Part shown: piece after piece, positions 22,439 through 62,921 of the stretch | Layout: each line of letters opens with the position of its first letter | Numbering within the stretch: the stretch's first letter is position 1 | Assembly: GCF_014892575.1 (NCBI RefSeq) | Contig: NZ_JADBGI010000003.1 | Span: 62,001-126,000 of the forward strand | Direction of reading: 5' to 3' | DNA length: 64,000 bases | Source of the DNA: Nocardiopsis coralli | Lineage (GTDB): Bacteria > Actinomycetota > Actinomycetes > Streptosporangiales > Streptosporangiaceae | Translations under genes and position numbers: made by a program | Notes under the pieces: generated by a model | Told to the model about the DNA's origin: nothing | Database searches by the model: none | What the model saw: only the letters and a program-made list of their open reading frames with translations

Positions 22439-22678
22439 TCAGTCCTGGATGATCACGCCCGTGTTGAAGCACGAGGACTGCGTCTGGCCGAGCACGGCGT
22501 TGCCGTTGCCGCAGCCTTCGTTCTCGTTCTCGACCCCGTTGATGTAGGCGAGGTTGCCGCTCACGTCGGAGCCGTGGGGGTGCGTCCAGGCACCGGCGTG
22601 CGCGGCGGCCGGTGCGGCGAGGAGGACCCCGGCGGAGGCCAGGGCGACGGCACCGGTGGCAAGCGTCTTCTTGAGCAC
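22439..22678 (-). CDS. Small secreted two-cysteine protein, unknown
   Basis: A 79-residue protein with a signal peptide (VLKKTLATGAVALASAG..., cleavage near AAAHA, about residue 28) and a mature part of about 50 residues with two Cys 14 residues apart (NENEGCGNGN and QSSCFNTG). The N-terminal LKKxLA start and gene size resemble the neighbouring chaplins, and GNxxxxN/Asn-Gly content is similar, but the chaplin core (VPVNxCGNSxxxLG) is absent, so I do not call it a chaplin. GTG start at 22678 with GGAG 10 nt upstream. Own terminator downstream. Confidence 0.6.
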   Translation of the reverse strand: MLKKTLATGAVALASAGVLLAAPAAAHAGAWTHPHGSDVSGNLAYINGVENENEGCGNGNAVLGQTQSSCFNTGVIIQD

Positions 22679-22767
22679 TAGGCGTTCTCCTTCTGGGTCC
22701 GGTCGGGGGGACCGCCGGACCGCGTGTGTTTCCCGAGGGCACCTTCTGGGGGGCGCCGACTGGGAAC

Positions 22768-22881
22768 CTACCGACAGCACGCCCCGCAGTAACCCCCTTG
22801 AGCTGGGATGATCACGAAAGAGTCGGTGGGCCTGACTTTGTGTAGCGGCAGGGCGGGGTGCCGATCGGGATGTAGGTGCAT
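22768..22881 (-). CDS. Possible short ORF with Cys-rich C-terminus
   Basis: A 37-codon ATG frame ending in YCGACCR and stop, upstream of the small secreted-protein gene on the same strand. The terminal three Cys codons in seven resemble the Cys-rich leader ORFs of actinobacteria. There is no clear ribosome site, and no sulfur gene follows, so this may be chance. Confidence 0.2.
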   Translation of the reverse strand: MHLHPDRHPALPLHKVRPTDSFVIIPAQGGYCGACCR

Positions 22882-22998
22882 ACGTCCGCCGATGTTCTGT
22901 GGCGCTGCGTGACCGGCCCGGAGGATTCTCGCCGGACCCGAACGGGGGTAACGGTCCGGCCGGGCGGGTCGGGCTGAGCGGGGCACGGACACACGGAA

Positions 22999-23029
22999 GG
23001 GGTGCCGCCCCTGGGAGGGACGGCACCCC
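22999..23029 (-). terminator. Terminator of chaplin gene A
   Basis: GGGGTGCCG (22999-23007) and CGGCACCCC (23021-23029) with further CCC/GGG pairing inside; 60 nt after the stop codon at 23090. TTCC follows on the minus strand. Confidence 0.75.
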
Positions 23030-53909: not shown

Positions 53910-56723
53910 TCAGGCCTCGTCGGACCCCGTCGAGGTGCTCTTGGGCTCCCCGGTCTTCTTCGCGGCCGGCTTCTTGGCCGTCGACTTCTTGGTGGTCGAG
54001 GCCTTCTTGGTGGTGGTGCTCTTCTTCGCCGCGGTCTTCTTGGCCGGCGCCTTCTTCTTGGCGGGGGCCTTCGCGCGGCGCTCGGCGAGCAGTTCGGCGG
54101 CGCGCAGGTCGCTCAGGGACTCGACCTCGTCGCCCTTGCGCAGGGAGGCGTTGATCTCCCCGTCGGTGACGTAGGGCCCGAACCGGCCGTCCTTGACGAC
54201 CATCTTCACGCCGGAGGCCGGGTCCTCGCCCAGCTCGCGCAGCGGCGGGGCGGCGGCGCGGCGTCCGCGCTGCTTGGGCTTGTCGAAGAGCTCCTTGGCC
54301 TGCTCCGGGGTGACCGTGAAGATCTGGTCCTCGGTCTCCAGGGAACGGCTGTCGGTGCCCTTCTTCAGGTAGGGACCGAAGCGGCCGTTCTGCGCGGTGA
54401 CCTCCTCGCCGTCGACCTCGCCGACCAGGCGGGGCAGCGACAGCAGGCGCAGCGCGTCCTCGAGGGTGACGGTGTCCAGGTCCATGCCCTTGAACAGGGA
54501 GCTCGTGCGCGGCTTGACCTTGGCCTTGCTCTTGGGCTTGCTCTCGCCCTCGGCCGGCTCCTCCAGCACCTCGGTGACGTAGGGGCCGAAGCGGCCGGTC
54601 TTGGCCAGGATCGCGCGCCCGGTCTCGGGGTCGGTGCCGAGCTCGCGGTCGCCGCTGGGCTGGGCGAACAGCTCCTCGGCCTTCTCCTGGGTGAGCTCGT
54701 CGGGCGCCAGGTCCTCGGGCACGTTGACGCGCTCGCCGTCGCGGTCCAGGTAGGGCCCGTAACGCCCGACCCGCAGGAGGATGTCGGTGCCCGGAACGGG
54801 CACGGAGCTGATCTCCTTGGGGTCGATGTCGGCGAGCTGGTCCCCCACGAGGTCCTTCAGCCCGACCTCGGACTCGCCCTCGGGGGTCTCGCCGCCGAAG
54901 TAGAAACGGCGCAGCCACGGAAGGCTCTGAGCGTCACCCCGGGCGATGTCGTCGAGCACGTCCTCCAGGCGGGCGGTGAACTCGTAGTCCACCAGGTTGC
55001 CGAAGTGGCGCTCCAGCAGCTGCACGACGGCGAAGGCCAGGAAGGACGGCACCAGGGCCGTGCCCTTCTTGAACACGTACCCGCGGTCGAGGATCGTGCC
55101 GATGATCGAGGCGTAGGTGGAGGGGCGGCCGATCTCCCGCTCCTCCAGCTCCTTGACCAGGGTCGCCTCGGTGTAGCGCGCCGGCGGGCGGGTGGAGTGG
55201 CCCTCCGCCTCCAGGCTCTCGGCCTTGAGCGGGGCGCCCTCCTCCATCGAGGGCAGGCGGCGCTCGCGGTCGTCGAGGTCTGCGGCCGGGTCGTCGGAGC
55301 CCTCCACGTAGGCCTTGAGGAAGCCGTGGAAGGTGATGACCTTGCCCGTCGCGGTGAACTCGGCGGTCTCACCGGCGCTGGAGGTGCCCTCGATGCGGAC
55401 GGTGACGGACTCACCGACGGCGTCCTTCATCTGGGAGGCGACGGTGCGCTTCCAGATGAGCTCGTACAGGCGCCCTTCGGGGCCGTTGAGGCCGACCTCG
55501 GCGGGCGTACGGAACGTGTCGCCGGCCGGGCGGATGGCCTCGTGCGCCTCCTGGGCGTTCTTGACCTTCTTCGCGTACACCCGGGGCTTGTCCGGCAGGT
55601 AGTCGCCGCCGTAGAGGCGCCGCACCTGGTCGCGGGCGGCCTTGACGGCGCTCTCCGACAGCGTGGTGCTGTCGGTACGCATGTAGGTGATGTAACCGTT
55701 CTCGTACAGGCGCTGCGCGACCTGCATCGTCTGTTTGGAGGACAGCCCGAGCTTGCGGGAGGCCTCCTGCTGCAGCGTCGTGGTGCGGAACGGCGCGTAG
55801 GGCGAGCGGCGGTAGGGCTTGCGCTCGACCGAACTGACCGCGAACCCGGCCCCGTCCAGTCGGGACGCGAGCCCGCGGGCGGCCTGCTCGTCCAGGTGGT
55901 GCACGTCGCGGTCGGAGCGCAGGGCACCCTGCGGGCTGAAGTCGCGGCCCACGGCCACTCGGCGGCCGTCCACCGACATCAGGGTGGCGGGGAAGGTCGC
56001 GGGGCCGTCGGAGGCGCCGGAACCGGTGGCGTCGAAGACCGCCTTGAGGTCCCAGTACTCAGCGGAGGTGAAGGCGATGCGCTCGCGCTCGCGCTCGACC
56101 ACCAGGCGGGTGGCCACCGACTGCACACGGCCCGCCGAGAGCTTCGGCATGACCTTCTTCCACAGCACCGGCGAGACCTCGTAGCCGTAGAGGCGGTCGA
56201 GGATGCGCCGGGTCTCCTGTGCGCTGACCAGGCGGGTGTTGAGCTCGCGGGTGTTGTCGGCGGCGCGCTGGATCGCGTCCTTGGTGATCTCGTTGAAGAC
56301 CATGCGGCGGACGGGGATCTTCGGCTTGAGTTCCTCGCGCAGGTGCCAGGCGATCGCCTCGCCCTCGCGGTCCTCATCTGTCGCGAGCAGGAGCTCGTCG
56401 GCGTCGGCCATGAGCTCCTTGAGCTTCTTGACGTGCGCCTTCTTGTCGGTGTTGACGACGTAGAGCGGCTCGAAGTCGCCGTCGACGTCCACGCCGAGGC
56501 GCGCCCAGGCCTGGCCCTTGTACTTGGCCGGGATCTCTGCGGCCTTGGTCGGCAGGTCACGGATGTGACCGATGCTGGACTCCACGACGTAGCCGCGCCC
56601 CAGATAGCCGGCGATGGTCTTCGCCTTGGCGGGGGACTCGACGATGACGAGCGCGGTGCCCTCGCCCTGACGTCCGCTGTCCTTGGAGCCGTTCTTGCCG
56701 GCGCTGCCCTTCGTGGCTGGCAC
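53910..56723 (-). CDS. topA: DNA topoisomerase I
   Basis: Type IA enzyme relaxing negative supercoils. The 937-residue protein begins after about 22 residues with the Toprim LVIVESPAKAKTIAGYLG, has ATDEDREGEAIAWHL (metal-binding Asp/Glu), the catalytic Tyr in NGYITYMRTDSTTL, and then actinobacterial C-terminal repeats (GRFGPYVTE, GRFGPYLKKGT, GRFGPYVTDG) without zinc fingers, ending in a Lys/Ala-rich tail (APAKKKAPAKKTAAKKS...) as in mycobacterial and Streptomyces TopA. GTG at 56723 after AGGGGAA. Confidence 0.96.
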   Translation of the reverse strand: MPATKGSAGKNGSKDSGRQGEGTALVIVESPAKAKTIAGYLGRGYVVESSIGHIRDLPTKAAEIPAKYKGQAWARLGVDVDGDFEPLYVVNTDKKAHVKKLKELMADADELLLATDEDREGEAIAWHLREELKPKIPVRRMVFNEITKDAIQRAADNTRELNTRLVSAQETRRILDRLYGYEVSPVLWKKVMPKLSAGRVQSVATRLVVERERERIAFTSAEYWDLKAVFDATGSGASDGPATFPATLMSVDGRRVAVGRDFSPQGALRSDRDVHHLDEQAARGLASRLDGAGFAVSSVERKPYRRSPYAPFRTTTLQQEASRKLGLSSKQTMQVAQRLYENGYITYMRTDSTTLSESAVKAARDQVRRLYGGDYLPDKPRVYAKKVKNAQEAHEAIRPAGDTFRTPAEVGLNGPEGRLYELIWKRTVASQMKDAVGESVTVRIEGTSSAGETAEFTATGKVITFHGFLKAYVEGSDDPAADLDDRERRLPSMEEGAPLKAESLEAEGHSTRPPARYTEATLVKELEEREIGRPSTYASIIGTILDRGYVFKKGTALVPSFLAFAVVQLLERHFGNLVDYEFTARLEDVLDDIARGDAQSLPWLRRFYFGGETPEGESEVGLKDLVGDQLADIDPKEISSVPVPGTDILLRVGRYGPYLDRDGERVNVPEDLAPDELTQEKAEELFAQPSGDRELGTDPETGRAILAKTGRFGPYVTEVLEEPAEGESKPKSKAKVKPRTSSLFKGMDLDTVTLEDALRLLSLPRLVGEVDGEEVTAQNGRFGPYLKKGTDSRSLETEDQIFTVTPEQAKELFDKPKQRGRRAAAPPLRELGEDPASGVKMVVKDGRFGPYVTDGEINASLRKGDEVESLSDLRAAELLAERRAKAPAKKKAPAKKTAAKKSTTTKKASTTKKSTAKKPAAKKTGEPKSTSTGSDEA

Positions 56724-57349: not shown

Positions 57350-59059
57350 TTACAGGCCCAGGCCCGCGGCGCCCAGCAGGGCGTCGACCGGGTTCCCCTG
57401 GTCGCCCATCGGGGCCTCGGGCAGCTCGGCACCCTCGAGAGCCTCGGGGGCCTCCTCCAGCGGCGCCTCCTCGACGGGCGCCTCCTCGACCGGAGCCTCC
57501 TCGGCGGGCGCCTCCTCGACGGGGGCTTCCTCGACCGGAGCCTCCTCGGCGGGGGCCTCCTCCAGCGGGGCCTCCTCCGCGGGGGCCTCCTCGGCCGCCG
57601 GCTCCTGCGTCTCCTGCAGGTCGTAGTCGACCGGCAGCTGCTCGGAGACCGGGACCTCGGGCAGCTGGTCCACGACCGGCAGGCCCTCCAGCGCGGACTG
57701 CTCCTCGGTCGCGCTCTGGTGCTCGACCTCGGCCTCGGTGTCGGGCGCGTTCGCGCCGGCCACACCCAGGACGCCGATGCCGTTGCCCGCGGCGTTCACC
57801 GGAACGTCCAGGTCGCCCACCAGCTGGTTGCCGCCCAGCACCGAACCGTTGCCGGAGGAGCGCACGTCCTGGTGCTGCCCCTCGACCTCGGCCTCGGTGT
57901 CGGTCGCGTTCGCGCCGGCCACACCCAGGACGCCGATGCCGTTGCCCGTGGCGTTCACCGGAACGTCCAGGTCGCCCACCAGCTGGTTGCCGCCCAGCAC
58001 CGAACCGTTGCCGGAGGAGCGCACGTCCTGGTGCTGCCCCTCGACCTCGGCCTCGGTGTCCGTGGCGTTCGCGCCGGAGACACCCAGGGCGCTGCTCGCG
58101 TTGCCGGACAGGGTCACCGGGACGTCGCCGTCGACGACGGCCTGGTTGCCGCCCAGGAGCGAACCGTTGCCGGAGGCGCGCACGTCCTGGTGCTGCTCCT
58201 CGACCTCGGCCTCGGTGTCCGTGGCGTTCGCGCCGGAGACACCCAGGGCGCTGATCGCGTTGCCGGACAGGTTCACCGGGACGTCGCCGTCGACCACGGC
58301 CTGGTTGCCGCCCAGGAGCGAACCGTTCCCGGACGTGGCGATCGAGTCGTCGTCGTGCTTGATCGGCGCGGCCTGCTGGAGCACGCCGGCGTCCACCCCG
58401 GAGGTGTCCGCGGCGGGCAGCAGCTGCGCGTTCTCGGCGGCCTCACCGAGCACGTCCGTGGCGGAGACGTCGCTCGGCGCGGACTGGTGCTCGACCTCGG
58501 CCTCGGTGTCCGTGGCGTTGGCGCCCGCGACGCCGCCCAGGGCACCGACCGCGTTGCCGGTCGCGTTCACCGGCACGTCGGCGTCGACGCCCAGCTGGTT
58601 GCCGCCCAGCACCGAACCGTTGCCGGAGGAGTGGGTGTCGTGGTGGCCGTGGTCCTCGACCTCGGCGCTGGTGTCGGGCGCGTTGGCACCGGCGATCCCG
58701 CCGACCGCGCCGACCGCGTTGCCGGTCGCGTTCACCGGCACGTCGGCGTCGACGCCCAGCTGGTTGCCGCCCAGCACCGAACCGTTGCCGGAGGAGTGGA
58801 TGTCGTGGTCGCCGTGGTCCTCGACCTCGGCGCTGGTGTCGGTCGCGTTGGCACCGGCGATCCCGCCGACCGCGCCGACCGCGTTGCCGGACAGGTTCAC
58901 CGGGACGTCGCCGTTGACGACGGCCTGGTTGCCGCCCAGGAGCGAACCGTTCCCCGAGGTCGCGGCGCCGGTGTCGGCGAAGGCGACCCCGCTGCCCAGG
59001 GCGACGAAGCCCGCCGCCAGGAGCAGGGACTTGGCGGATGTGCTGGCCCACTGACGCAT
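57350..59059 (-). CDS. Multi-repeat chaplin-like surface protein without cysteines
   Basis: A 569-residue exported protein. Signal peptide about 28 residues (RQWASTSAKSLLLAAGFVALGSGVAFA). Then seven chaplin-like repeats of about 50 residues, each with SGNGSxLGGNQ, a D-V-P-V strand, a GNxxxxxLG/VGG strand and GANA(T/P)DT followed by an acidic AEVE segment. The two chaplin Cys are replaced: NxCGN becomes NLSGN or NATGN, and NCTD becomes NATD. Repeats 6 and 7 are nearly identical. The C-terminal part (about 110 residues) is Glu/Pro/Ala repeats (EEAPAEEAP, EEAPVEEAP) ending DALLGAAGLGL, with no sortase motif. ATG at 59059 with AAAGGAAG. Likely co-operates with the LADTG chaplin just upstream. Confidence 0.85.
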   Translation of the reverse strand: MRQWASTSAKSLLLAAGFVALGSGVAFADTGAATSGNGSLLGGNQAVVNGDVPVNLSGNAVGAVGGIAGANATDTSAEVEDHGDHDIHSSGNGSVLGGNQLGVDADVPVNATGNAVGAVGGIAGANAPDTSAEVEDHGHHDTHSSGNGSVLGGNQLGVDADVPVNATGNAVGALGGVAGANATDTEAEVEHQSAPSDVSATDVLGEAAENAQLLPAADTSGVDAGVLQQAAPIKHDDDSIATSGNGSLLGGNQAVVDGDVPVNLSGNAISALGVSGANATDTEAEVEEQHQDVRASGNGSLLGGNQAVVDGDVPVTLSGNASSALGVSGANATDTEAEVEGQHQDVRSSGNGSVLGGNQLVGDLDVPVNATGNGIGVLGVAGANATDTEAEVEGQHQDVRSSGNGSVLGGNQLVGDLDVPVNAAGNGIGVLGVAGANAPDTEAEVEHQSATEEQSALEGLPVVDQLPEVPVSEQLPVDYDLQETQEPAAEEAPAEEAPLEEAPAEEAPVEEAPVEEAPAEEAPVEEAPVEEAPLEEAPEALEGAELPEAPMGDQGNPVDALLGAAGLGL

Positions 59060-59367
59060 GTGGGACTTCCTTTCGAGAGTTCGGGAAAAGCGTTCTGCTG
59101 TTGCTGAGAAGGTTGTGCCGCCGGATCCGGGCCGTCCGTTGCCCCTGGCTGGGGAACGGCGCCCCGGTCCGACCGGGGAGCATCCGGTCGGCCGCGCACC
59201 TGGACGGTGCGTGTCTGCCGGGTCGAGGAGCGCGCCGCCACCGGTGACCACTGGAGGTGGCCCGGCGCCCGCGCCCTGTCCGATCAACCCCGCCCCTTCC
59301 GGGACGGCGGCTGACGTGAACCCCGCGAACATGGCCTCTGACCCGTGCTGCGGGACTCGCGTCAACC

Positions 59368-59393
59368 CCCGGGCCGCACGGCGGCGGCCCGGG
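59368..59393 (-). terminator. Hairpin terminator of the long chaplin
   Basis: CCCGGGCCGC (59368-59377) and GCGGCCCGGG (59384-59393), perfect, 7 nt after the stop codon at 59401. Together with another hairpin at 59162-59178 it occupies the 341-bp gap 59060-59400. Confidence 0.7.
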
Positions 59394-59400
59394 AGGCCGA

Positions 59401-60075
59401 TCAGGCTCCTGCGCGGCGGCGCAGCCCGAAGACCAGGCCGGCGCCGACGGCCACAGCGCCCACGGCGGCGGCGATCAGACCGACCAGCGGGCCGCGCTCG
59501 GTGCCGGTGTCGGCGAGCTCCGCACTGGCCGGGGAGGCGTCGGTGACCGGGTCGGCCTCACGCAGCTCCTCGGTCGCGGGGGCCTGCTGCTCCTCGGTGG
59601 TCTCACCGGGGACGCGCATCTGGTCCTCGGTCTCGGCGGGCTCCTCACCGGTGTCGGTGCCGCCCTCGCCCGGGTTCTCACCGCCGTCGCCGGGGTCGCC
59701 GGGCGTCTCGCCCTCATCGTCCGGGCCGGGGTCGACGCCCGGGTCCTCCTCGCCCGGCTCGGGCTCCTCGGGCGGCTGCGGGGCGTCGGTGCTGGAGGCG
59801 TCCTCGTCCTCCTCGCGGTCGTCCGTCCCTTCGTCCTCGGAGCCGTCCTCGACGGAGGCCTCGGAGTCGGTGCAGTTCGCGCCGGCCACACCGAGCAGGC
59901 CGACCGCGTTGCCGCAGAGGTTGACGGGGGCGTCGACGTCGGCGCCCACCTGGTTGCCGCCACCGATCGATCCGTTTCCGCTGGTGGCGGTGTCGGCGAA
60001 CGCGGCACCCCCGGAGGTCATCAGGAAGCCGGCGGCCACCAGGGCGGCGATGCGGGCGTGGGTTTCGTGGGTCAT
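59401..60075 (-). CDS. Long chaplin with LAXTG sortase motif
   Basis: A 224-residue cell-wall-anchored chaplin. Signal peptide about 27 residues ending GAAFA; one chaplin domain (TSGNGSIGGGNQVGADVDAP, VNLCGNAVGLLGV, GANCTDSEASVED) with both Cys; a roughly 95-residue acidic, Pro/Gly/Glu-rich spacer; then the class-E-type sorting signal LADTGTERG, a membrane helix PLVGLIAAAVGAVAVGAGLVFG and RRRAGA. Streptomyces long chaplins usually have two chaplin domains; this one has one. ATG at 60075. Confidence 0.92.
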   Translation of the reverse strand: MTHETHARIAALVAAGFLMTSGGAAFADTATSGNGSIGGGNQVGADVDAPVNLCGNAVGLLGVAGANCTDSEASVEDGSEDEGTDDREEDEDASSTDAPQPPEEPEPGEEDPGVDPGPDDEGETPGDPGDGGENPGEGGTDTGEEPAETEDQMRVPGETTEEQQAPATEELREADPVTDASPASAELADTGTERGPLVGLIAAAVGAVAVGAGLVFGLRRRAGA

Positions 60076-60241: not shown

Positions 60242-61357
60242 CTAGTCAGGGGAGTACGACGGGTCGTCGGCAGCGTCGCGGACCACGATGTCGGGGTCCC
60301 CGGGCATGACGACCCGCAGCGCCCGGGGAGCCAGGTGATCGGCCCGGGCGGTGAGGAACCCGGCGGCGCCGGGCGCGGGGAAGCTCGGCGCGGAGGCGCC
60401 GGTGGAGTCCGTCCCCGCAGAATGCTGGCCACCACCAGCGATGAGGCGGATGCGCTCCGCCTCGTCGTCCTCGTCGGAGGAGGCGTGGTCGGCGGCCTCT
60501 GCGGCCGCGGCCCGCCACGCGGGGTCCTCGGTGGTGGTGATGGCCGACGCGGCGTTCTCCGACGCGGGGGCCTTCTCGTCCCGGTCGTCGTCGCCGCGCC
60601 CGTTGCTCTCGGGTCCCGTGGAGAGTTCGCCGTCGTCGTCGGTGGTGCGTGCCTCGTCGGCGGTGATGTCACTGCCGTCGACGGACACACCGACGGAGCG
60701 GGCCGACTCGGTCAGCCCCTCGGTGACGGTGTCGACCAGGGCGGTCTCGCCCCGCAGAGAGCTGTCGGTGGAGTCCACGACGCCCTGTCCGGTGCGGGCC
60801 AGTCCGGTGACCAGCTCACCCGCGCCGCGGGCGGTGCCGTCGACGGCCTGGGAGGTCTCGTCGACGACCCGGCCGGCCTCGGCGTTGGTGTCCTCGAGGG
60901 TTCCCGAGACGCTGGAGCCCTCCAGGGACCCGGCCACCTCCGCGGTGCCCTCGAGGGACTCGGCGACGCCGGTCTCCTCCAGGGTGTCCGCAGGAAGGGA
61001 GACCGCCCGGGAGGCGGTCTCCTCGGTGACCTGACCGGTGGTCTCGGCGACCTGGCCGGTGGTCTCGGCGACCTGGCCGGTGGTCTCCGCGGCCTGCGAG
61101 GCCGTGTCGGAGATCCGGGAGTCCCGGACCTCGCCCTCGGCCTCCTGCCCTGCCTGCTCGGCGGTGTCGTCGAGCTCCAGGACGTTGTCGACGAGCCCTT
61201 CGGACTCGGAGGCGGTGTCACTGTGGGCGACACCGATGCCCCCGGCCAGCCACGCGACGGCGACGATGCCGGACAGGAGCAGCAGCCGGGCCAGGGCGTG
61301 GGAGCTGTGGGCAGCGCGACCGGTCGTGACCGGCCACCCCCGACCCACGAGCACCAT
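60242..61357 (-). CDS. Secreted repeat protein associated with chaplins, unknown
   Basis: A 371-residue exported protein. Signal-anchor at about residues 20-45 (ALARLLLLSGIVAVAWLAGGIGVAHS). The next 150 residues are coiled-coil-like and include three near-exact AETTGQV heptads and similar degenerate repeats (ASLEGTAEVAGSLEGSS, TDSSLRGETALVDTVTEGLTESA). The C-terminus has an Ala/Asp-rich region and a compact end APGAAGFLTARADHLAPRALRVVMPGDPDIVVRDAADDPSYSPD (quoted in parts). A similar VRDAADxPSxSPD ending occurs in Streptomyces proteins near chaplins, from memory. ATG at 61357 with GGAAAGGGG upstream. Function unknown. Confidence 0.6.
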   Translation of the reverse strand: MVLVGRGWPVTTGRAAHSSHALARLLLLSGIVAVAWLAGGIGVAHSDTASESEGLVDNVLELDDTAEQAGQEAEGEVRDSRISDTASQAAETTGQVAETTGQVAETTGQVTEETASRAVSLPADTLEETGVAESLEGTAEVAGSLEGSSVSGTLEDTNAEAGRVVDETSQAVDGTARGAGELVTGLARTGQGVVDSTDSSLRGETALVDTVTEGLTESARSVGVSVDGSDITADEARTTDDDGELSTGPESNGRGDDDRDEKAPASENAASAITTTEDPAWRAAAAEAADHASSDEDDEAERIRLIAGGGQHSAGTDSTGASAPSFPAPGAAGFLTARADHLAPRALRVVMPGDPDIVVRDAADDPSYSPD

Positions 61358-61598
61358 GGATGCCCCTTTCCTCGCTGCTGCTGGACGGTCCCGCGCGGCG
61401 GCACCGACGCGGTCGCACGGCGGGGTCGGGCCGTCCGCACACACCTGTTCCGGTGGTGAGGAGGAGCTCCAACCCCTCGAACTCGATGCAACCGTAGCAT
61501 CACGTTCCGTGACTACGCACGGGATTACCAGGCCGGACCGAGAAGATCTCGGCCCGGCCGGAGGGCGTCTCGGGGCAAGCCCTCCCGAGGCGGACGAC

Positions 61599-62921
61599 TC
61601 AGCTCATGCCGACGAATCGGTCGAGTACACGCACACCGAACTGGAGACCGTCCACGGGCACCCGCTCGTCGACGCCGTGGAACATCCCGGCGAAGTCGAG
61701 CTCGGGTGGGAGCTTCAGCGGGGAGAAGCCGTAGTTGCGGATCCCCAGGCGGTGGAAGCTCTTGGAGTCGGTGCCGCCCGAGAGGCAGTACGGCACGGCC
61801 TTGGCTCCCGGGTCCTCGGCGAGCAGCGACTCCGACATCGCGTTGACCAGGCCGCCGTCGAAGGAGGTCTCCACGGCGGGCAGGTGCTGGATGAACTCGC
61901 GGCTCACCTTCGGGCCGAGGAGCTCGTCGATCTTGGCGAAGTACTGCTCCTCGGTGCCCGGCAGGAACCGGCCGTCCAACTGGGCGGTCGCCTCACCCGG
62001 GATGACGTTGGCCTTGTAACCGCCGCCCAGAACCGTCGGGTTGATCGTGTTGCGCAGCGTCGCGCCGATCATCTTCGCGATCGGACCCAGGCGCGCGACC
62101 GTGCCCTCGACGTCGCGCTCGTCGAAGGGGATGCCGAACTCCTCGCACACCTCCTCCAGGAACGTGCGCACGGTCGGCGTCAGGTGCACCGGGAACTCGT
62201 GCTCGCCCAGCCGCGCGACCGCCGCCGCGAGCTCGGTCACCGCGTTGTCCTTGTTGGTCATCGACCCGTGGCCCGCCGTGCCGCGCGCGGTGAGCTTCAT
62301 CCACGCGATGCCCTTCTCGGCGGTCTCCACCAGGTACAGGCGGCGGTTCTCCTCCATCGTCACGGAGAACCCGCCGACCTCGCTGATGGCGGAGTCGCAG
62401 TCGGCGAAGAGTTCCGGGTGCTCGTTGACCAGGTACTGGGCGCCCCAGGTGCCGCCGGCCTCCTCGTCGGCCACGAACGCGAGCACGATGTCGCGCGGGG
62501 GACGGCGGCCCTCGCGCAGGCGCTGGCGCAGCGTCGCCAGGACCATCGCGTTCATGTTCTTCATGTCGACCGCGCCGCGGCCCCACACGCACCCGTCGGC
62601 GACCTCGCCGGCGAAGGGGTGGTGGGTCCAGTCGTCGGCGGCCGCAGGGACCACGTCGAGGTGGCCCTGGATCAGCAGCGGCGGACGGCTGGGGTCCTCA
62701 CCCGTGATGCGTGCCACGAGGTTGCTGCGCCCGGGGTGCTTCTCGTAGATCTGCGACTCCACGCCGACCTCGTCGAGACGGCCCGCGACGTACTCGGCGG
62801 CCTTGCGCTCGCCGGGCCCCGAATGGTCGCCGTAGTTGGAGGTGTCGATCTCGATGAGCTCCCGGCAGAGGTCGGTGACCTCGGCCTCCGCCGCGCTCAG
62901 GTCCTTGCCGGGTTCGGCCAT
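61599..62921 (-). CDS. M20 family metallopeptidase
   Basis: A 440-residue M20 (ArgE/DapE/carboxypeptidase-G2-like) enzyme with two metal sites: LLIQGHLDVVPA, WGRGAVDMKNMNAM, the catalytic Glu pair in VADEEAGGTWGA, ISEVGGF and a C-terminal His in AGMFHGVDERVP. The dimerisation domain lies in between (ARGTAGHGSMTNKDNAV...). No signal peptide. Substrate (peptide, acylamino acid) undetermined. ATG at 62921 with GGAG upstream; an extension to 63062 lacks homology. Confidence 0.9.
   Translation of the reverse strand: MAEPGKDLSAAEAEVTDLCRELIEIDTSNYGDHSGPGERKAAEYVAGRLDEVGVESQIYEKHPGRSNLVARITGEDPSRPPLLIQGHLDVVPAAADDWTHHPFAGEVADGCVWGRGAVDMKNMNAMVLATLRQRLREGRRPPRDIVLAFVADEEAGGTWGAQYLVNEHPELFADCDSAISEVGGFSVTMEENRRLYLVETAEKGIAWMKLTARGTAGHGSMTNKDNAVTELAAAVARLGEHEFPVHLTPTVRTFLEEVCEEFGIPFDERDVEGTVARLGPIAKMIGATLRNTINPTVLGGGYKANVIPGEATAQLDGRFLPGTEEQYFAKIDELLGPKVSREFIQHLPAVETSFDGGLVNAMSESLLAEDPGAKAVPYCLSGGTDSKSFHRLGIRNYGFSPLKLPPELDFAGMFHGVDERVPVDGLQFGVRVLDRFVGMS

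Follow-up and report, generated by a model that had tools for sequence, protein, structure and literature searches.

In the published work, chaplins are defined by three GN motifs 12–13 residues apart (PMC13251363) and are mostly disordered or in part random coil in solution (PMC4929970). The initial annotation of the locus described here had stated that known chaplins keep both cysteines of the domain, which is contradicted by ChpE of Streptomyces coelicolor (PMC3079736) and by the C-terminal domain of ChpB (PMC13251363), both of which lack them; cysteine-free chaplin domains are already known. ChpE has surface activity and assembles into fibrils, and the absence of cysteine has been proposed to favour its monomeric surface-active form. 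According to the same paper, fibrils form in vitro without the chaplin cysteine pair, but in vivo the pair is needed in ChpH, where a cysteine-less version gave severely compromised aerial hyphae in a minimal strain (PMC3079736). Chaplin-like genes are mentioned in Nocardiopsis dassonvillei and Thermobifida fusca in a further paper (PMC4255298).

The locus lies in the window, that is, the whole 64,000-nucleotide stretch of Nocardiopsis coralli DNA that was analyzed, which corresponds to positions 62001–126000 of contig C23 in a 6.40-Mb draft genome of 80 contigs; the host is a filamentous soil bacterium. Translation of the minus-strand open reading frame at 57350–59059, which starts with an ATG preceded by a conserved AAAGGA, by eye its ribosome-binding site, gave a protein of 569 aa with no cysteine. 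Its signal peptide (aa 1–28, 58976–59059), recognized by eye and ending in GVAFA before a D, is strongly kept in the aligned orthologs as M..W..TSAKS.LL.AGFVALG.GV.FAD. Seven repeats follow on the same strand, of which repeats 1 (aa 35–80, 58820–58957), 2 (aa 90–135, 58655–58792) and 3 (aa 145–190, 58490–58627) are separated by a conserved, non-chaplin hinge (aa 191–242, 58334–58489), with an SGVDAGVL-type motif in orthologs, from repeats 4 (aa 243–287, 58199–58333), 5 (aa 296–340, 58040–58174), 6 (aa 349–393, 57881–58015) and 7 (aa 402–446, 57722–57856). An acidic EEAP-rich tail (57353–57721) closes the protein, its C-terminal end PVDALLGAAGLGL resembling that of most genus orthologs, and no LxxTG, hydrophobic anchor or sortase signal was seen in it. 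The repeats are mildly hydrophobic (GRAVY 0.18), while the tail is hydrophilic and acidic, with 36 acidic residues and no Lys or Arg among the last 119 aa; the mature protein has a calculated pI of 4.05 and a size of about 52 kDa.

Assignment of the repeats to the chaplin family, as first proposed, was borne out by the Pfam profile PF03777 (ChpA-C), which matched the whole protein in hmmscan at E 3.2e-12, scoring 46.5 bits where the gathering threshold is 21. The possible refutation named by the initial annotation, that no chaplin profile would match, is therefore not realized, though single repeats lie near the cut-off: scanned singly, repeats 1–7 scored 18.9, 22.2, 23.4, 21.9, 16.2, 21.9 and 21.2 bits (E 5e-5 to 0.009), so that five of seven reached 21 bits and repeats 1 and 5 fell below. 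Within the whole protein, seven PF03777 stretches passed only the loose limit of E 10 and none passed 0.001. The same Pfam scan gave no binding domain. A PDB sequence search with the array gave a best match of only E 0.24, and AlphaFold2 on a 36-row alignment produced no usable model (pLDDT 36.2, pTM 0.16).

Inspection of the motif sites confirmed that both cysteines are lost from all repeats. Site 2, NC in chaplins, is NA in 7/7 repeats as had been claimed; at site 1, CGN in chaplins, the claimed SGN or TGN holds for repeats 1–6, with S in repeats 1, 4 and 5 and T in 2, 3 and 6, and repeat 7 has AGN. Thirteen residues separate GGN from the S/T/A-GN motif in all seven repeats, as in chaplins. 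The third motif is AN instead of GN in every repeat, and the same is found in the neighboring chaplin and in three short cysteine-bearing chaplins of the window. As in other PF03777 proteins, a secretion signal (by eye) is followed by hydrophobic domains of about 40 aa; none of the seven repeats has the two cysteines of a canonical chaplin domain. It resembles the long chaplins ChpA-C in having several chaplin domains and a hydrophilic tail, but those have two domains and a C-terminal sorting signal, whereas the array has seven domains and lacks LxxTG. Like ChpE, it is secreted, unanchored and without the cysteine pair; unlike ChpE, which has one domain, a size of 5–6 kDa, a pI of about 6.8 and Gly and Val in place of the cysteines, it is a 569-aa precursor of seven domains with a pI of about 4.05 and with S/T/A and A at these sites. 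ChpB also contains a cysteine-free domain within a multi-domain chaplin (PMC13251363), but has two domains, one of them cysteine-bearing, and a sortase anchor, compared with seven cysteine-free domains and no anchor here.

Repeats are 69–96% identical to one another in protein and 75–99% in DNA. Codon differences numbered 2/45 between repeats 6 and 7, 4/45 between 4 and 5, and 10/46 between 2 and 3, in keeping with the earlier view that repeats 6 and 7 are almost identical and recently expanded. By best DNA identity, window repeats 1, 2+3, 4+5 and 6+7 map onto repeats 1, 2, 3 and 4 of G023, the nearest relative found (TopA 98% identical). The seven repeats of the draft assembly would fit three recent single-unit duplications relative to the four of G023.

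Directly upstream on the same strand stands a long chaplin of 224 aa (59401–60075), with one cysteine-bearing domain and a C-terminal LADTG-type sorting signal, and beyond it gene X (60242–61444, minus strand), encoding a secreted or membrane protein by eye that ends in DDPSYSPD and has no Pfam match. Downstream of the array lies its constant neighbor at 53910–56723 (minus strand), whose product we take from its sequence to be a TopA-type DNA topoisomerase I. Cysteine-bearing chaplins had been noted next to the array, and both the one-domain protein at 59401–60075 and three short ones at about 23.1–24.6 kb of the window, about 35 kb from the array, were found. A genome-wide PF03777 search at E 0.001 gave ten places, from which the cysteine-free array repeats were absent; apart from the one-domain neighbor and the three short chaplins, these places are six cysteine-bearing domains of a single protein on contig C21, 483 aa long and with an LPVTG tail. 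The genome holds two sortase genes. Beside the three short chaplins, at about 22439–23026 on the minus strand, a frame encodes a small secreted-looking protein with two cysteines (GCGNGNAV...SSCFNTG), which by eye may be chaplin- or rodlin-like.

Next, conservation of the array was evaluated across the genus and order. The protein search matched 40/40 genus genomes, with the window's genome and paralogs counted, and the locus, fetched from 36 of the 39 other genus genomes, held an orthologous array of 3–6 repeats every time, one of them (L064, three repeats) being cut by a contig end. In G018 the end of an array stands at a contig edge, and in G019 no repeat was detected, although the leader is there, close to the end of a contig. 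In G004 (99% complete), topA is preceded by a gene of the gene X type and by one for a sortase-signal protein in which no chaplin repeat was detected, with no array; since this genome is without it, the array is dispensable there. That locus (L223, G004:C8:84000-92000) looks like a natural loss, with neither array nor leader match between the sortase-signal protein gene and topA. In 36/36 loci topA follows on the same strand, 609–797 nt downstream (median 648). Ten ortholog pairs had dN/dS of 0.20–0.51, and by this sequence measure the array is under purifying selection. The SGNGS and GGNQ positions of the first repeat are invariant in 36 aligned rows, a hinge before the last repeats and a C-terminal end are conserved in most arrays, and genus arrays lack a sorting signal. 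The initial annotation had also pointed to an AEVE spacer after each repeat (seven copies) and an EEAP tail; both are present in the window, but neither is a family feature, as AEVE spacers were found in 2/37 genus arrays (window and G014) and EEAP tails in 4/37 (window, G014, G023 and G039).

Arrays with a nearby topA occur in further genera as well (17/19 loci, L138–L156, show topA), in records named Murinocardiopsis, Marinactinospora and Allonocardiopsis, and one within the window's genus code is named Streptomonospora. It had been asked whether the architecture is a well-known one in the group: it is widespread in Nocardiopsis and related genomes, and a literature search of open-licence PMC papers, in their accessible portions, found no description of a cysteine-free multi-domain chaplin. 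Because the gene is conserved across the genus and near relatives, the cysteine-free array is a real, apparently undescribed protein variant. At E 0.001 the array alignment matched 302/345 order genomes; among 394 class genomes at E 1e-15 only four genomes outside the family (genus code g127) matched.

To describe the cysteine pattern, both sites were scored in the 37 genus arrays including the window. Of their 180 repeats, 171 lack both cysteines, nine have both and none has one; the nine belong to nine different arrays and are always repeat 1, and complete cysteine loss is therefore not essential. Both cysteines are present in 43/43 domains of 34 sortase-type proteins (33 neighbors and the six-domain paralog of the window's own genome) and in 2/2 domains of two neighbors without a recognized tail. 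An outer set of 20 array or array-fragment entries, which includes L155 although this entry belongs to the genus genome G018, had 75 repeats with neither cysteine, two of them resting on a gapped alignment, and six with both; the Murinocardiopsis array is mixed (-C---CC-), and G240 has cysteines in its three detected repeats. On a quick TopA tree without a mixture model, built without L064, whose first repeats lie beyond the end of its contig, the cysteine state of repeat 1 changed at least four times among 36 genus rows and five times among 50 rows with outer genera.

The spacing between the two sites also differs between protein types: 14 residues in 166/180 genus array repeats (157/171 cysteine-free, 9/9 cysteine-bearing), against 13 in sortase-type domains (43/43) and short chaplins (3/3). 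The 14 array repeats without the extra residue are in the window's clade. Gene conversion from the neighbor, considered as a source of the cysteine-bearing repeat 1, is disfavored since those repeats have the 14-residue spacing of arrays. G009 (L062) and G020 (L067) have nearly identical TopA, and one of their arrays has a cysteine-bearing repeat 1 together with a different N-terminal half. At the sequence level, this contrast suggests that segments inside the array gene were exchanged by recombination.

Across the wider order, the positional pattern is inverted. Like the array, topA-linked multi-domain chaplins of other genera (e.g. Actinomadura) combine several chaplin domains with an adjoining topA; unlike it, a cysteine-free first domain is found in 19/25 multi-domain chaplins and later domains are cysteine-bearing, with 0/112 lacking both. 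The 25 are those with at least three domains (e.g. L102, L164 and L175) among the fetched loci, which were picked from the best matches to the array alignment plus five further named records. None of the 19 cysteine-free first domains has Cys at site 1, and three of them show a gap at site 2; such a gap is also seen, together with Cys at site 1, in eight later domains. As topA stands beside the multi-domain chaplin gene in 16/26 wider-order loci, a count that includes one locus fetched at 20 bases and too short to show it, these genes and the array probably derive from the same ancestral locus.

The intergenic leader that precedes the array, separating it from the sortase-type chaplin gene (59060–59400, minus strand), is conserved genus-wide; the spacing is long, 308–434 nt in 35 loci, and unusually conserved in 34 aligned loci. 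No Rfam family matched it at the gathering score; with the limit relaxed to E 5, a single human lncRNA family came up (E 4.8). A near-invariant dyad of about 58 nt, GGTTGACGcGAGTCCCGC...GCGGGGTTCaCGTCAGCC (hairpin A, 59310–59367, minus strand), stands out, and since 13 of its 16 pairs never vary, covariation is no test of this hairpin. Helix B (59291–59307, minus strand) shows compensatory changes, with both sides changed in 4/6 pairs, and its outer extension would exclude hairpin A. A five-helix set had 23 both-side-change cells against 7.4 in shuffles, with 0/500 shuffles as high, in a comparison uncorrected for relatedness of the loci. Alternative leader folds are possible, because an extended helix B, which shares a strand with hairpin A, scored likewise.

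A covariance model of hairpin A and its flank matched 62/342 order genomes at E 0.001, from 14/69 genera, and 19 of 394 sampled class genomes, all sharing the same family code; because the element is a dyad, the model also matched, as it should, on the other strand. Of 12 loci in which a weaker second dyad site was examined, nine have behind it a gene whose product carries a similar signal peptide of the AGF(V/I)ALG type; the first 110 aa of one protein behind such a site gave no Pfam match. The window's own genome has two further good copies and a weak one (E 1.1e-5, 4.5e-5 and 0.019), L216 at G000:C23:24245-24306, L217 at C34:175594-175674 and the weak L218 at C34:186677-186742, each preceding a protein with the same signal-peptide type. 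Genes with a gene X-type ending stand upstream of other dyad copies; in the own genome, the upstream gene ends in SPD at 2/3 further dyads, as gene X does. The dyad at 59310–59367 is a candidate new cis-regulatory element, which might act as RNA leader, operator or terminator.

For the function of the array, the reading that we favor, at about an even chance, is that of a secreted, unanchored, soluble, multivalent ChpE-like chaplin co-assembling with the anchored and the short cysteine chaplins on hyphae. It draws on a by-eye signal peptide, seven chaplin-type units, no cysteine or sorting signal, and conservation beside a cysteine-bearing sortase-type chaplin and topA; the whole-protein PF03777 match, the paired cysteine loss and the dN/dS values also speak for it. 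The chaplin unit would be retained and the disulfide given up; the released protein would be kept soluble by acidic and His-rich linkers and the missing cysteines, as proposed for ChpE, and its strand-forming repeats would co-assemble at the air–water or hyphal surface with two kinds of partner, the anchored long chaplin and short cysteine chaplins. Each molecule could then bridge several fibrils, such that the cysteine chaplins would give disulfide-linked nuclei and the array length and cross-bridges. The low-pLDDT model (pLDDT 36) fits the disorder of chaplins in solution without demonstrating it. The suggestion of the initial annotation that the array may serve as scaffold or matrix beside the cysteine chaplins is plausible; its step from cysteine loss to a different assembly mode is unsupported, because reduced ChpD, ChpF, ChpG and ChpH and the cysteine-free ChpE all form fibrils in vitro. 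Against ChpE-like co-assembly, single repeats lie near the PF03777 cut-off and are omitted by the genome-wide search at E 0.001, and cysteine-free units may not form a coat at all, given the severely compromised aerial hyphae with cysteine-less ChpH. The nine arrays with a cysteine-bearing repeat 1, the lack of an array in G004 and the differences from ChpE in size and pI also count against it.

Histidine in the linkers allows another reading, which we consider unlikely: a metal- or pH-switched matrix protein whose His-rich linkers bind metal or titrate near neutral pH, with reversible coordination replacing the disulfide. In the 37 genus arrays, linker His has a median of 12.7% (range 3–21%), with runs such as HHGHHGHHGHHGH, and the domains are nearly without His (0–2 per array), compared with 0/97 linker residues in the six-domain cysteine paralog, a median of 0.6% (at most 5%) in 34 sortase-type neighbors and 1.0% in TopA. 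However, some of the mostly cysteine-bearing arrays of the order also have His-rich linkers (22 arrays, median 5.1%, up to 17%), related genera include fully cysteine-free arrays with little His (L150 4%, L147 5%), and the window protein is just moderately His-rich (12/113 linker residues). The four His-poorest genus arrays (3–6%) keep the repeat-1 cysteines, but others keeping them reach 13–21%. A simple rule that His replaces Cys was rejected as stated, because His-rich cysteine-bearing, His-poor cysteine-free and His-rich repeat-1-cysteine arrays all exist and the two residues are not simply traded.

That the array is an adhesin or biofilm-matrix protein used for attachment instead of an aerial coat, its chaplin repeats acting as sticky strands and its acidic tail left free, seems quite improbable: the protein is unanchored, long and acidic, its repeat number varies among genomes, and chaplins are reported to help mycelium attachment (PMC4255298), but it is usually partnered by a sortase-type chaplin, which is the arrangement of coat systems, and no binding domain turned up in the Pfam scan. 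That the array is a relaxed leftover, a chaplin paralog that lost its function and then drifted, its cysteines going by decay, is very hard to sustain, for although G004 lacks the array and dN/dS is only moderately below 1, the 36 orthologs have open frames, interrupted by nothing but a contig end, no single-cysteine intermediate occurs in 180 repeats, the SGNGS and GGNQ positions do not vary and the long leader is conserved.

One may also suppose, in what we offer as a long shot, that Nocardiopsis and its relatives have their own coat system, in which a cysteine-free multivalent chaplin is cross-linked by metal or protons through His linkers and not by disulfides, and the dyad, as RNA leader or operator, co-regulates it with several undescribed secreted proteins. 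The shared dyad would be a handle on which other secreted proteins are candidates for membership. At present, in vitro and in vivo data contradict each other on what the chaplin cysteine pair does; its removal from up to seven successive domains, always as a pair in the 180 repeats counted, while the anchored neighbor keeps it, is a natural experiment on the role of the pair, and the inverse positional rule in relatives, cysteine-free first and cysteine-bearing in the rest, sharpens it.
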